Origin: Aeoliella straminimaris
Lineage (GTDB): Bacteria; Planctomycetota; Planctomycetia; Pirellulales; Lacipirellulaceae
Direction: 5' to 3'
DNA length: 64,000 bases
Assembly: GCF_024054565.1 (NCBI RefSeq)
Contig: NZ_JAMXLR010000006.1
Span: 124,001-188,000, forward strand
Part shown: piece after piece, positions 21,286-63,875 of the stretch
Layout: each line of letters opens with the position of its first letter
Numbering within the stretch: position 1 is the stretch's first letter
Notes under the pieces: model-generated
What the model was told of the DNA's origin: nothing
What the model saw: the letters and a program-made list of their open reading frames with translations, nothing else
Databases searched by the model: none
Translations under genes and position numbers: made by a program

Positions 21286-21646
21286 GGGGGCGAACAGGGT
21301 TCGACCGGATAGGCGAAGCGTAAGTGGCGTGTCGTGGTTGATCGGTGGCCCACGTAAAAAGCCGATCAAAACCTTCAATTGCCGAAGGTAACTACGCTTT
21401 GGCTGCCTAGAACTAGGCTGCCCGTTCCCCAGCTGCTCGCCGGAAGCGGCTGACGGAACGTATAACCCCCTCCGGACCGCTGCGGTTCATTGCTGAGCAC
21501 GGCCGCGGTTAAATAAGTTCTCGGCTAGTTCATCGGTAGCCCTGCCTGAGAGGCGCCCGATGAGCGAAATCAAATCTCTCGGGACACACACGTAGAAGCT
21601 TACGTGGAGATATTACGGGACGCGGGTTCGATTCCCGCCGCCTCCA
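21286..21646 (+). ncRNA. ssrA: tmRNA (transfer-messenger RNA)
   Basis: 361 bases. The 5' end GGGGGCG pairs with the 3' acceptor strand CGCCTCC (21639-21645) with one G-T pair, followed by the discriminator A at 21646; CCA is not encoded. A T-arm (GCGGG-TTCGATT-CCCGC, 21622-21638) is intact. A reading frame in the first third ends ...AEGNYALAA then TAG, the usual hydrophobic -ALAA degradation tag. The RNA rescues stalled ribosomes by adding this tag to the unfinished protein. The first tag codon is not certain. The 3' end of the gene overlaps the integrase coding sequence. Confidence 0.93.
21600..21646. other. probable attachment site (tmRNA 3' end)
   Basis: The tyrosine recombinase gene on the minus strand ends at 21600, inside the last 47 bases of tmRNA. 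Integrases of genomic islands commonly recombine at the 3' end of tmRNA and leave the tmRNA intact. The other copy of this 3' segment, expected at the far end of the island, was not found in the rest of the window. Confidence 0.65.
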
Positions 21647-22943
21647 CTTTGTCACTTGTTGCCAACTGGCGACGATCAGCGTCAAAACCCTTGCCTCGGC
21701 AAGGGTTTACGCGTTTCTGGAGATTCTCTTCGGTGTCAGACGAAGTCATCCCATGCCCCTTGGCGCCGCAAAAAGTGCAGCGCATTTGCAGCGCGCCAGA
21801 TTTTGGCAGCGCTGCAAGAGTGGCGGGTTCTACCCTCCTTTGAGGTGTCGGCAGGTTTGCGACGGCCTTGGCCTGGTCGCTAAGGCCAATGTGCGTGTAT
21901 TTCATCGTCATGGTCACGTCAGAGTGTCGCGCCAGCTCTTTGGCCTCCGGCAGAGACACGCCATTCCGCAGAAGTTCGGTGATGTGCGTGTGGCGACCAG
22001 CGGCATGGAAGTCCGCTATTCCCTCCTCTGTCTTGTAGGCGATACCGACCCGCTCCAGGTCCTTCTTCACCATGAGCCACGTCTTCTTTCGCTCCAGTCG
22101 AGGAAATAGTTTCTCAGACGGCTTGAGTCCTTTTAGCCAGCTTTCGAGCAAATTGACGAGATCGGGGTGTAGCGGCAGGACATCTTTGCGGCGGTGTTTG
22201 GAGCACGCCGCTTCTACAGTGACTGTAGCTGGACTGACGTCTAGCACAAAGCTCCTCGGCGTCAGGCTGGAGAGCTCTTTCCTCCTTAGGCCCGTCATGT
22301 AGGAAAGCAGATATACTTTGGCCCTCTGCTCGCCCGATAGGCCCTGGATTCGCTTACTACTCGACCGAGCCGACTCGACTAGCTCATATACCTCCTCCGA
22401 GGTCAAAGCCCGACGGGGATGTCGCACGTCAGTTGCAGTGTTAAGACGCTCTAAGCGCACAAGTGGGCTCGCTAAGAGCCGTTTCGTAGTCACACACCAG
22501 TAGCAGAATGCGTCCATGGCCTGCAGATAGTGATTGTAGGTGCGATGCCCTAAATTCTCCGCTTTCCGCAGCTTGCGAAGATAGCTCTGGACCTCCTCTG
22601 CCTCGATAGCTCCAAGGGTTTCAAAGCCACATCCCTCTACTACGCGGCGGACACGAGCCATAGTGAGCTTCACGTGCTTTTCGGTATTGTCGGAGAGGCT
22701 TTCTTCGAAGGCCGACAAGTGCTCATGGATTGGGGCAGACCGATGCGTGGCTACGCGATCCTGCGACGGATCGATGAGACCCGTGGCTCGTTGCCTTGCT
22801 TCGGATTCGAGCTTTGCTGCAAGTTCCTCCGTCAATCCCTTGTCGGTAAAGCCCCGCACTGTGCGGCGTTTACCTAGGTGATCAACGTACTGGATCAGGT
22901 ACGGCTCGTTGCGTCGCTTACTGCGTTTGAAAATAGAAGCCAT
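21600..22943 (-). CDS. tyrosine recombinase / integrase
   Basis: 447 residues from the ATG at 22943, with AAGGAG seven bases upstream. The catalytic core is clear: TGLRRKELSSL (first catalytic Arg), a HAAGRHTHITELL block (second His/Arg), and LARHSDVTMTMKYTH containing the nucleophile Tyr. The N-terminal 160 residues contain the SAM-like core-binding domain (FEESLSDNTEKHVKLTMARV). It would cut and rejoin DNA at an attachment site, here most likely the 3' end of tmRNA. The last 15 residues (EAAGIEPASRNIST) are encoded by the opposite strand of tmRNA, so the present C-terminus is set by the integration site. Its partner gene sits two bases upstream. Confidence 0.92.
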   Translation of the reverse strand: MASIFKRSKRRNEPYLIQYVDHLGKRRTVRGFTDKGLTEELAAKLESEARQRATGLIDPSQDRVATHRSAPIHEHLSAFEESLSDNTEKHVKLTMARVRRVVEGCGFETLGAIEAEEVQSYLRKLRKAENLGHRTYNHYLQAMDAFCYWCVTTKRLLASPLVRLERLNTATDVRHPRRALTSEEVYELVESARSSSKRIQGLSGEQRAKVYLLSYMTGLRRKELSSLTPRSFVLDVSPATVTVEAACSKHRRKDVLPLHPDLVNLLESWLKGLKPSEKLFPRLERKKTWLMVKKDLERVGIAYKTEEGIADFHAAGRHTHITELLRNGVSLPEAKELARHSDVTMTMKYTHIGLSDQAKAVANLPTPQRRVEPATLAALPKSGALQMRCTFCGAKGHGMTSSDTEENLQKRVNPCRGKGFDADRRQLATSDKVEAAGIEPASRNIST

Positions 22944-50056: not shown

Positions 50057-50115
50057 TGCGTTCGGTTCGATTGTTTTTCTGTTTGGTTTACTAGCTCTTG
50101 AAAGGAGCAACTATC

Positions 50116-50337
50116 ATGGCTAAGCAACCAGTCTTTGAAGTTCGTTTGGGCCGCATCAAGGCGGTCGTGTGGGAGAACGAGACCGAGAAAGGGACGCGTC
50201 ACAACGTCCAGGTCTCGCGGCTCTACAAGGAAGGCGACGAGTGGAAGAGTTCGTCCAGTTTTGGGCGGGACGATTTGCCGCTGGTGGGCAAGGTCTGCGA
50301 CCTGGCCCATAGTCGCCTTTACGGCGAAGCGGCCTAG
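50116..50337 (+). CDS. small conserved protein, paralogue of the 55461 gene
   Basis: 73 residues from the ATG at 50116, with AAAGGAG eight bases upstream. The protein (VRLGRIKAVVWENETEKGTRHNV, then QVSRLYKEGDEWKSSSSFGRDDLPLVGKV and AHSRLYGEAA) can be lined up along its length with the 91-residue protein at 55461: VW-N, G-x-HNV, R-YK, EW-S-SF, DLP and AHS are shared. Function unknown; the pattern suggests a compact beta-rich protein. It may be translated with the DUF932 gene. Confidence 0.7.
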   Translation: MAKQPVFEVRLGRIKAVVWENETEKGTRHNVQVSRLYKEGDEWKSSSSFGRDDLPLVGKVCDLAHSRLYGEAA

Positions 50338-55460: not shown

Positions 55461-55736
55461 ATGAACCAACCTGTCCAACGTTATCGCTACGGCGCCGTAT
55501 CGGTCGCTGTCTGGCTCAACCAGTCGCGAACCGGCATCCATTACAACGTCACGGCCAAGCGGTCGTACAAAGATAAAGAAACCGACGAGTGGCACGACTC
55601 CGAATCGTTTTCCGACTCAGACTTGCCGGCGCTCGCCAAGGCGGCCTTCGATGCTCACAGCTGGATCCAAGAGCAGAAACGGCAAGCAACGACCACGGTC
55701 GTCGGCGAGGATGCTGAGCCCGACGACATCGATTAG
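55461..55736 (+). CDS. small conserved protein, paralogue of the 50116 gene
   Basis: 91 residues from the ATG at 55461, preceded by AAAAGGAGG. Protein patterns (GAVSVAVWLNQSRTGIHYNV, then TAKRSYKDKETDEWHDSESFSDSDLPALAKAAFDAHSW) line up with the 73-residue protein at 50116. The C-terminal end is acidic. Function unknown. Both copies follow hairpin-dense tracts: here the tract directly precedes the gene; at 50116 the tract precedes the DUF932 gene. Confidence 0.7.
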   Translation: MNQPVQRYRYGAVSVAVWLNQSRTGIHYNVTAKRSYKDKETDEWHDSESFSDSDLPALAKAAFDAHSWIQEQKRQATTTVVGEDAEPDDID

Positions 55737-61086: not shown

Positions 61087-61312
61087 CTCACACCTCGCTG
61101 GGAATGTGCTGTTGTTGGCGACGGCCTGCAACGCAGCGCCGACTGGCAGTCGCCAGGAATCTCGTCGCGTTGCGTACCTATTCAGGCACGTCTGGCAAGG
61201 AAACTGTGCGCGCAACCTGAAACTTTTTTGGGCCTTGGCGGACAAGGCTCCACTGCTATCGTCTTGCCCTCTCCCCGCAAGATCAGCCTTGGTCGCTACG
61301 CGACAGCGGGGA

Positions 61313-61359
61313 TGGAAATGGTTGTCCTTCAACACAAGGTGTAAGGACAACCATTTCCA
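61313..61359 (+). promoter_or_regulatory. leader hairpin A with conserved loop
   Basis: A 17-bp perfect stem: 61313-61329 pairs with 61343-61359, with the 13-base loop CAACACAAGGTGT between. It ends one base before the ribosome-binding site (GGAGGAG) of the small gene at 61369. The loop and inner stem are the same as in hairpin B (62079-62125), but the outer stem sequences differ. An alternative inner pairing, CCTT with AAGG inside the loop, is possible. Confidence 0.85.
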
Positions 61360-61368
61360 GGAGGAGTG

Positions 61369-61449
61369 ATGAATTACGACCTACTTGAAACTAACTTGCA
61401 ACGACTTCGTGCAGCGTGTGGCGAACGATTCGCTGGGAGGGCCAGCTAA
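61369..61449 (+). CDS. 26-residue leader peptide
   Basis: The frame is ATG at 61369, ending with TAA at 61447-61449 (product starts MNYDLLETNLQRL and ends RFAGRAS). CAGGAGGAG stands directly before the ATG, an unusually strong ribosome-binding site for a short frame. The TAA overlaps the next ATG by one base (TAATG), so it is a plausible translational coupler for the DUF1281 gene. Function unknown; it may be only a leader. Confidence 0.65.
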   Translation: MNYDLLETNLQRLRAACGERFAGRAS

Positions 61450-62045
61450 TGCCTAATCATGTTCAACAGAGTCTTACCTGCGTGGGTCAGCACGTCGCCG
61501 ACCTGATCAATCACGTCAAGGGGGACCAGTCGCCCTTCGACTTCAACCAGGTCATCCCGATGCCCGCCGCGCTCGACATCGAAGCTGGGACCACTGGTGA
61601 GATGGGCGTCGCTGTCTTGAACGATCGATGCCATCCATTCCTTACCTACCCGTGGGTGAAGCGGAAGGGGATCAGAACGGCACAGCAGTTCAGGCAATAC
61701 GTGGAGCGTGAACGGCCGGAAGCGATCGAGTTGGGAAAGCAGTACCTCGACAACCAACGGCAGTACGGACACACGACCTGGTACAGTTGGCGCCTCGAAC
61801 ACTGGGGCACGAAGTGGAATGCTTACAACGTGAGTGTGCAGGAAGAGAGCCCCTTGGAAGCGATCATCCGTTTCGAGACCGCATGGAGCCCAGCCATCCC
61901 AGTGGTCGCTCGGCTGTCGGAGTTGTATCCAAACGTGCGGTTCACGCTCGATTACGTCGACGAATGTCTCAACTTTGCCGGCACGGCTTGGATAGTCGCC
62001 GGGCAGGTTGTCGACACCCCCTGCGACCCCTGCGCCCAGCACTAG
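61449..62045 (+). CDS. DUF1281 / Api92-like protein
   Basis: 198 residues from the ATG at 61449 (the frame is open from 61416). Start MPNHVQQSLTCVG, followed by FDFNQVIPMPAALDI, and later RLEHWGTKWNAYNVSVQE, FETAWSPAIPVVARLSELYPNVRFTLDYVDE and FAGTAWIV. This is the pattern of the ferredoxin-like Api92 protein family (DUF1281) known from phages and plasmids. Function unknown. It is coupled to the short leader frame and preceded by hairpin A. Confidence 0.83.
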   Translation: MPNHVQQSLTCVGQHVADLINHVKGDQSPFDFNQVIPMPAALDIEAGTTGEMGVAVLNDRCHPFLTYPWVKRKGIRTAQQFRQYVERERPEAIELGKQYLDNQRQYGHTTWYSWRLEHWGTKWNAYNVSVQEESPLEAIIRFETAWSPAIPVVARLSELYPNVRFTLDYVDECLNFAGTAWIVAGQVVDTPCDPCAQH

Positions 62046-62078
62046 CGGTCGCTCAGGGTTAGGGGCAGTGGATTCTCC

Positions 62079-62125
62079 CATGTGAGTTTGTCCTTCAACA
62101 CAAGGTGAAAGGACAAACTCACATG
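62079..62125 (+). promoter_or_regulatory. leader hairpin B with conserved loop
   Basis: A 17-bp perfect stem: 62079-62095 pairs with 62109-62125, with the 13-base loop CAACACAAGGTGA. It ends just before AGGAGGAC, the ribosome-binding site of the gene at 62136. Loop, loop length and inner stem (TGTCCTT/AAGGACA) equal those of hairpin A; the outer ten stem pairs are largely different in sequence yet still pair. Confidence 0.87.
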
Positions 62126-62135
62126 AGGAGGACAC

Positions 62136-63128
62136 ATGCAGCCAGCGACAAACCAAGCAAAACCATCGCGACTCGCTCTCTTTCCTAGCGGCGACCCCAA
62201 TACGGCATTCGGCCATCTATCGCCAGCAGAGATCCTGAAAACGTACGGCCATCCGCGCTACCTGCTCAGTTCCTCGGCCAAGGCCAAGAAATGCCTGCTG
62301 GTCCGGGTGCTCACGCGGATTCTGTACCTGACATCTGGGCTGTTTTGTTCGCACGCCGACTCGTGCCTCTACAGTTGCCTGGCCCACACGTCCGGAAGAA
62401 TGCCGATGGCCGACTGCGTTCGTACGCGGGACCAACGCACGGCCTTGTACCTAGAGTCGCCGGAGCTTTTCATCAAACGACTGCATGCGGAAATCGCCTT
62501 GCATGAAGTCGAAGCCAATCGCCGCGGGCTGCAATCTGCGGTGCGACTCAACGGCGGTAGCGACCTTCTCTGGGAACGTCGTCACCGCGAATTATTCTTC
62601 GCCGCGCCCGATACGCAGTTCTTCGACTACACCAAAATTCCCGTCCGCATGAATCGTTTTCTGGCGGGCGAGATGCCGGACAATTACCACCTGACGTTTT
62701 CGGCAGGAGACGCCAACCACGACCAGGCTAAGCGAGTCTTGGACAAGGGTGGCAACGTGGCGGTCGTATTCTGGCCGGAGCTGCCAATTAACTGGTGGGG
62801 CTTTCCGGTGCTGGACGGTGACACGCACGACGCCCGATTCTTGGACCCGGCCGGCTCGATCGTCGGCCTCCGCGCCAAGGGGGTGGCACGCGTCGACCTG
62901 GCGGGCTTCGTCGTGCGGCCCTGTCCGGAGTGCAACGACGGCAGCGAACTCGTCTTGGAATCGATGCACGAGGATACGCACCGACACACTTGCCATCGGT
63001 GCCGACGCTGTCGCTACCAACTACGTTCTCGCTGGATGGCGCCGCGACGACGACACAAAGACCAGCTCGTTCAGTCAAAACGCCGCGAGGTTGTAGTAGC
63101 TCAATGCAGCAATGCGAAAGCCGCTTAA
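62136..63128 (+). CDS. gp88-like protein of mobile elements
   Basis: 330 residues from the ATG at 62136 (GGAGGACAC upstream). The segment SGLFCSHADSCLYSCLAHTSGRM ... DCVRTRDQRTALYLESPELFIKRL ... QSAVRLNGGSDLLWE resembles the phage gp88 family, where three or four Cys precede an R-x-x-R block and VRxNGxSDxxWE. A late Cys set (CPECNDG ... CHRCRRCRYQL) could form a zinc site. The C-terminus is very basic. Enzymatic role unknown. It is preceded by hairpin B. Confidence 0.68.
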   Translation: MQPATNQAKPSRLALFPSGDPNTAFGHLSPAEILKTYGHPRYLLSSSAKAKKCLLVRVLTRILYLTSGLFCSHADSCLYSCLAHTSGRMPMADCVRTRDQRTALYLESPELFIKRLHAEIALHEVEANRRGLQSAVRLNGGSDLLWERRHRELFFAAPDTQFFDYTKIPVRMNRFLAGEMPDNYHLTFSAGDANHDQAKRVLDKGGNVAVVFWPELPINWWGFPVLDGDTHDARFLDPAGSIVGLRAKGVARVDLAGFVVRPCPECNDGSELVLESMHEDTHRHTCHRCRRCRYQLRSRWMAPRRRHKDQLVQSKRREVVVAQCSNAKAA

Positions 63129-63161: not shown

Positions 63162-63875
63162 ATGCCAACAATCAACGTCCCACTTGCCATTCCCGAGACA
63201 ACCAGTCCAGTCCCGACGCTCGCGAGCGTGCATGTCGAAGGGGGCCGCGGCGATTACGGCGACCCCAACTACCGCGGCAACTGCTCGGGCCTGCTGATTC
63301 GTGACCTGGTGGCGTACTTTCGCCCGCGAAACCTGCTCGATCCGATGCAGGGCGGCGGCACTGCCGGCGACGTCGCCCGGTCGCTCGGCATTGACTATCA
63401 GGGTTTCGACCTCAAAACCGGCTTCGACGCGGCCGACGCCCGTAGCTTTGACGGCCTTGGCGGGTTCGACATGGTGTGGCTGCACCCACCCTATCACGAC
63501 CTGATTCGTTACAGCGACGACCCGCGGTGTCTATCGCGGTCCAGTTCGCTCACCGAATTCTGTGACAAACTCGCCGGTGTCCTGGCCAACTGCCGCGACG
63601 TCTTGACCCAGCGAGGACACTTGGTCGTGCTGATGGGCGATATCACCCGTCGCGGCAACTACTATGCCTTGCCGTTTCATGCTTGGCGGCTGGCCACTGA
63701 ACTTGGGATGGAACTCGCCTGCCCGGAGATAGTCCGCCTCAGCCATGGGGCGACGTCGACCGCTAGGACGTACCGGTTCTCGTTCATCCCCCGGGTCCAC
63801 GACGTTTGTCTCGTGTTACGGCGAAGAGCTTCGAAAACAGCTCCAGTCGCTCAGCAGCAAGGAGGTGCGATATGA
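63162..63875 (+). CDS. DNA methyltransferase-like protein
   Basis: 237 residues from the ATG at 63162 (GGAGG upstream). Motif I is LLDPMQGGGTAGDVARSLG (SAM-binding), followed by YQGFDLKTGFDAADAR. The catalytic motif IV is VWLHPPYHDLIRYS, with H in place of the usual first D of D-P-P-Y. It is a compact N4-cytosine/N6-adenine type methylase. No restriction partner is seen. Its last four bases overlap the start of the next gene (ATGA). Confidence 0.75.
   Translation: MPTINVPLAIPETTSPVPTLASVHVEGGRGDYGDPNYRGNCSGLLIRDLVAYFRPRNLLDPMQGGGTAGDVARSLGIDYQGFDLKTGFDAADARSFDGLGGFDMVWLHPPYHDLIRYSDDPRCLSRSSSLTEFCDKLAGVLANCRDVLTQRGHLVVLMGDITRRGNYYALPFHAWRLATELGMELACPEIVRLSHGATSTARTYRFSFIPRVHDVCLVLRRRASKTAPVAQQQGGAI

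Follow-up and report, generated by a model that had tools for sequence, protein, structure and literature searches.

The window analysed here, a stretch of 64,000 nucleotides from the planctomycete Aeoliella straminimaris, covers part of an integrative element of ~99 kb that is inserted in the tmRNA gene (ssrA). The tmRNA gene (21286-21649), which is the sole Rfam match in the window, adjoins an integrase gene on the minus strand (21888-22406), and its last ~26 bp are directly repeated about 99 kb downstream, near C66:244806. The element also encodes a MobF relaxase of the TrwC type, along with a coupling protein that resembles TrwB. Thus, what the first-pass annotation had called the mobile part of this sequence is an ssrA-integrated MobF element.

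Two hairpins lie on the plus strand of this element. Copy 1 (61313..61359) has the stem arms TGGAAATGGTTGTCCTT and AAGGACAACCATTTCCA around the loop CAACACAAGGTGT, and copy 2 (62079..62125) has the arms CATGTGAGTTTGTCCTT and AAGGACAAACTCACATG around the loop CAACACAAGGTGA. Both have perfect stems of 17 bp and near-identical loops of 13 nt, and their outer arms differ in sequence while being fully paired, as had been described at first reading. The strong ribosome-binding sites reported to follow are also present and abut the hairpins: the Shine-Dalgarno sequence (SD) GGAGGAG comes directly after copy 1 (61360..61366, +; ATG at 61369), and GGAGGA, predicted to be sequestered, comes after copy 2 (62127..62132, +; ATG at 62136). 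No terminator-like site (a G+C-rich stem followed by a T-run) was detected in 61090-62150.

The hairpins had been attributed to two genes, and this holds for copy 2, which directly precedes a GP88-family gene with phage homologues (62136..63128, +; PF17338, E = 4.2e-36). Copy 1 does not directly precede the second gene, which contains a DUF1281_C (Api92-like) domain (61449..62045, +; PF18406, E = 4.6e-12); between them is a 26-codon ORF (MNYDLLETNLQRLRAACGERFAGRAS; 61369..61449, +) with its own strong SD. The stop codon of this ORF overlaps the next start at 61449 (TAATG), an arrangement by which translation of the DUF1281-type gene may be coupled to that of the ORF. Downstream of the GP88-family gene and in the same direction is a putative DNA methyltransferase gene (63162..63875, +), which matches PADLOC MTase_II (E = 9.5e-18) and falls below the cut-off for Pfam N6_N4_Mtase.

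Stems of this kind are not expected by chance. Counting perfect stems only, with loops of up to 30, in the 138,828 bases around the hairpins, we observed two of at least 17 bp where dinucleotide shuffles gave none, and four of at least 13 bp where shuffles gave 0.15. The core CCTTCAACACAAGGTGNAAGG has two matches in the window at up to three mismatches (0.00 expected), and the exact 12-nt loop core is confined to copies 1 and 2 across the 7.8-Mb genome.

A scan of the contig for long perfect stems recovered a third copy in the same element, 1.6 kb beyond the end of the window (C66:189640-189678 = L026:9640-9678, window-equivalent 65640-65678), with the stem arms AGGATTGCTCCTT and AAGGAGCAATCCT and the loop CAGCCGGAGGTGA. 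The first-pass annotation had proposed a covariance-model search for additional copies, and further copies do exist. With a model of the three copies we searched 396 related genomes and obtained two clear new matches, both in one planctomycete of another family of the same order (G062), with E-values of about 1e-5 per genome or about 0.004 over the whole search; copy 1 itself scores 56.5 bits under the covariance model, by construction. The G062a copy (L264) has the loop CAGCGCAGGGTGA and one bulged base, and the G062b copy (L261, minus strand) has the loop CAGCGCCGGGTGA and one C.A mismatch; in both an SD and an ATG are directly downstream. The two are paralogues whose small proteins are 82% identical.

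The family is rare, with one other genome represented among several hundred relatives. A five-sequence model gave no convincing match when run against 392 genomes from the phylum, a set that partly overlaps the earlier one, and no additional copy within the family of G062. Among viral contigs the exact loop core had 0 matches; looser loop patterns had 54, 23, 8, and 25 matches, none of which combined a leader position with a long matching stem, and because these loci were chosen by motif, their covariance-model scores are biased. A pattern scan of the genome contigs yielded no good stem among the matches listed, and nucleotide searches of plasmids and phages returned nothing relevant. Two loci were considered and discarded: L200, which has a 13-bp stem yet looks coding, and L065, which matches the loop but is apparently coding DNA without a stem. 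Comparison with 4,227 Rfam families gave no match to the hairpin at gathering score, and the leaders gave only sub-threshold chance matches to microRNA and scaRNA families.

One weaker match, in G021 (L262/L311), has a loop identical to that of copy 3 and lies outside a leader position, with a GP88 homologue and an integrase nearby. It is the kind of match expected if the hairpins were dispersed palindromic DNA elements (REP- or MITE-like) that came to lie before genes by accident. However, at E = 5.9e-4 per genome about 0.2 such matches are expected over 396 genomes, so that it is compatible with chance. The three copies in the Aeoliella genome are also not scattered genome-wide, as would be expected of such elements, but are confined to one element, where about 4.4 kb spans them all, and each of the five good copies occupies a leader position, with a single orientation on the strand of the gene that follows and 0-10 nt from its SD. 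We therefore regard a dispersed repeat as quite improbable.

The covariation first noticed between two hairpins extends to all five. In an alignment that was fitted to the model, and thereby favours the covariation score, and that includes the two paralogous G062 copies, 8 of the 13 stem pairs have changed on both sides, 64 of the 65 cells are paired (98.5%), and the covariation score is 0.677; shuffles reach 0.18 +/- 0.07 and slid structures no more than 0.14. Copies 1-3 were already perfect stems ahead of any model building. The loop behaves in the opposite manner: its consensus across the five copies is CARCNSNRGGTGW (RNA: CARCNSNRGGUGW), with RGGTGW at one fixed position and a purine before GGTG in every copy. 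Perfect inverted repeats close to where a gene begins could also be operators that a dimeric repressor binds as double-stranded DNA; such operators, however, should keep their arms and leave the spacer free, whereas these hairpins have variable arms and a constant spacer, which makes this explanation very improbable. That the 13-nt loop is the constant part points instead to the loop as a recognition site, possibly one bound by a protein.

The hairpins had been proposed to form a cis-acting RNA element that perhaps switches between CCTT-AAGG pairings. The covariation across five copies supports the general part of this proposal, a leader that folds; the specific switch is not supported, since AAGG is limited to the loops of copies 1 and 2, and the corresponding loop sequence is GGAGG in copy 3 and AGGG or CGGG in the others. 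Each loop also matches the anti-SD sequence over 5-8 nt (-6.5 to -14.9 kcal/mol; shuffle p 0.002-0.18), with the canonical anti-SD used because the 3' end of the host 16S rRNA was not found in the assembly. The RGGUGW motif could thus mimic an SD by pairing with 16S rRNA, in a standby or decoy role, or the resemblance could be coincidental; for the G062 loops the SD-mimic reading is weak (shuffle p 0.12-0.18).

In place of the CCTT-AAGG alternative, the second pairing that recurs is between an upstream CU-rich strand and the SD, which close around the hairpin in copies 2, 3, G062a, and G062b. In copy 2 the upstream strand is TTCTCC (62073..62078, +; from folding), and the outer pairing is longest in G062a, at up to 10 bp. 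Partition-function folding predicts a mean unpaired SD of 0.17 for copy 2, 0.00 for copy 3, 0.02 for G062a, and 0.12 for G062b, and without the upstream 70 nt the SD of these four copies is freed (0.64-0.78; copy 2, 0.64). Shuffled upstream DNA masked the SD equally well in 9/100 cases for copy 2, 0/100 for copy 3, 0/100 for G062a, and 3/100 for G062b. The SD of copy 1 also has a low mean unpaired value (0.12), but 31 of 100 upstream shuffles were as low and it depends little on the upstream DNA. For copies 1 and 3 the ATG positions used in this calculation were slightly off, with the scored SD sites lying within the true ones. Since SD pairing depends on the upstream strand in four of the five copies, with copy 1 not distinguishable from shuffles, these four support an SD-masking leader.

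The hairpins are very stable (-25 to -29 kcal/mol) and adjoin the SD, and a stable 5' leader hairpin in this position is a known means of protecting an mRNA. They could therefore be stability or processing stem-loops, that is, an RNase E shield or an RNase III site, in which the loop is not regulatory. This explanation gives no reason why the 13-nt loop should stay constant from one family to another as the stem changes, and we consider it unlikely.

The gene behind copy 3 encodes 104 aa and starts at L026:9699; behind the G062 copies is a homologue of 79 aa that is 32% identical to it over 57 aa (pairwise E = 4e-8). Thus, the hairpin has been retained before homologous small genes that are only about 30% identical. 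In the intact G062 locus the small gene is followed by ardA (PF07275, E = 2.8e-41); the other (L266:9900-11840) has a short ardA-like frame with a gene for a Mutator-family transposase immediately after it. No hairpin of the leader type was found before the GP88 homologues of seven other genomes or before the small-gene homologues that were checked, including that in G008, so these genes do not generally require one. The protein of the small gene behind copy 3 has relatives in several planctomycetes, the members tested having no Pfam family above cut-off, and two more paralogues are encoded in the window (50113-50337 and 55461-55736), neither with such a hairpin upstream.

Within the Aeoliella element, the relaxase operon is preceded by a 510-nt stretch in which no clear gene is apparent (L026:10380-10890), a candidate oriT region; the hairpin genes are situated on its left and are directed toward it. 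The leading regions of R388 and F provide the basis for comparing the orientation of these genes. By this analogy, the hairpin genes appear to be arranged like the establishment genes of a leading region, facing the side where oriT probably lies; neither oriT nor nic was located, and we therefore infer both the leading-region assignment and the direction of transfer. Leading regions house anti-restriction and methyltransferase genes and typically also carry single-stranded DNA promoters (PMC11541004; PMC7736820).

This context bears on the main rival to an RNA leader, in which the hairpin would fold in the single-stranded DNA of the transferred strand during conjugation and act as an Frpo/ssi-type promoter or primer start, turning on anti-defence genes before second-strand synthesis. 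The MobF relaxase and coupling protein, the position and direction of the hairpin genes relative to the non-coding stretch, and the downstream methyltransferase gene all fit such a role, as does ardA, a classic leading-region gene to which the G062 copies lead. Promoter-like sites upstream of the hairpins are no better than chance, which also counts in favour of this rival. However, known Frpo-type promoters have recognisable -35 and -10 elements in the folded stem, whereas here either strand is no better than shuffles, and a stem of 13-17 bp is short for such a pair of elements. The outer helix, moreover, lands on the SD, which is needless for a DNA element. Single mismatches point both ways: the U.G pair in the outer helix of copy 2 is acceptable in the sense RNA and would be A.C on the other strand, whereas the stem mismatch of G062b is C.A in the sense strand and G.T on the opposite one. 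Gene context thus favours the single-stranded DNA explanation, and the missing -35/-10 elements, together with the connection to the SD, disfavour it; overall, we consider it rather unlikely.

About 80 nt before the hairpin, copy 3 and the two G062 copies have a further block in common, CGTGCC(M)G...GCC(Y)GTCACT..(Y)TGC, which is an imperfect palindrome (L026:9551-9580; L264:1395-1445; L261, minus strand). It is absent elsewhere in the DNA examined and keeps no common reading frame. In copy 3 the block lies inside a strong hairpin followed by TTTTGTTTT, an arrangement that resembles a terminator; no such tail follows the block in the G062 copies.

Taken together, we favour a cis-acting translational leader, with the loop as its recognition site, before establishment-type genes of planctomycete conjugative or mobilisable elements. 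This reading draws on two genomes and few copies, and we judge it about evenly balanced between right and wrong. The long stem, free in sequence and kept in pairing, would fold first in the transcript and set the upstream CU-rich strand beside the downstream SD, so that the SD would be paired and translation would start poorly. A trans-acting factor at the loop (a protein, an antisense RNA, or the 30S subunit) would then set the level of translation; in the case of the 30S subunit, pairing of RGGUGW with the anti-SD could serve as a standby site. The analysis shows the hairpins, their covariation, the constancy of the loop, the placement of all five copies in leaders, and the gene context, whereas we infer transcription through the hairpin, masking of the SD in vivo, what the trigger is, and which way the effect goes.

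A bolder and doubtful extension is that these hairpins represent a new family of leader RNAs, used repeatedly by mobile elements, that gates their establishment genes (anti-restriction, methyltransferase, and small conserved proteins), with the loop as an SD mimic or factor site that would permit translation conditionally, for example just after cell entry. What is known of early gene control in conjugative elements comes mainly from plasmids of proteobacteria and from single-stranded DNA promoters, and, if true, the leader would add a second, RNA-level control of establishment beside those promoters. The hairpin would also serve as a sequence tag for leading regions outside the well-studied phyla, and the leader is small and readily testable by reporter. 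In titles and abstracts of the open-access literature, we found no leader of this kind described in planctomycetes or before ardA. Thus, the type of device, a leader hairpin that controls an SD, is known, whereas the family, its loop, and its context are undescribed in the literature searched.

Among known systems, the coat-protein operators of MS2-type phages are likewise hairpins near a start codon with a constant loop and a free stem. The size and sequence of the loop are unrelated here, and a binding protein for the present hairpin is hypothetical. Leader hairpins bound by CsrA/RsmA are also short, with a purine-rich loop beside the SD, but their defining loop GGA is present in copy 3 only and absent from the loops of copies 1, 2, G062a, and G062b. 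The Frpo/ssi single-stranded DNA promoters (PMC11541004) are similarly folded repeats upstream of anti-restriction and establishment genes that point to the relaxase side; by comparison, the hairpin described here has a much shorter perfect stem, lacks -35/-10 elements, and abuts the SD. Relative to SD-sequestering leaders and ribosome standby sites such as that of tisB (PMC7708055), with which no sequence relation is known, the hairpins differ in that one loop carrying an SD-like motif is reused before several unrelated genes and their function is predicted; what they have in common with these leaders is a structured leader, a paired SD, and an upstream feature that possibly receives the 30S subunit first.
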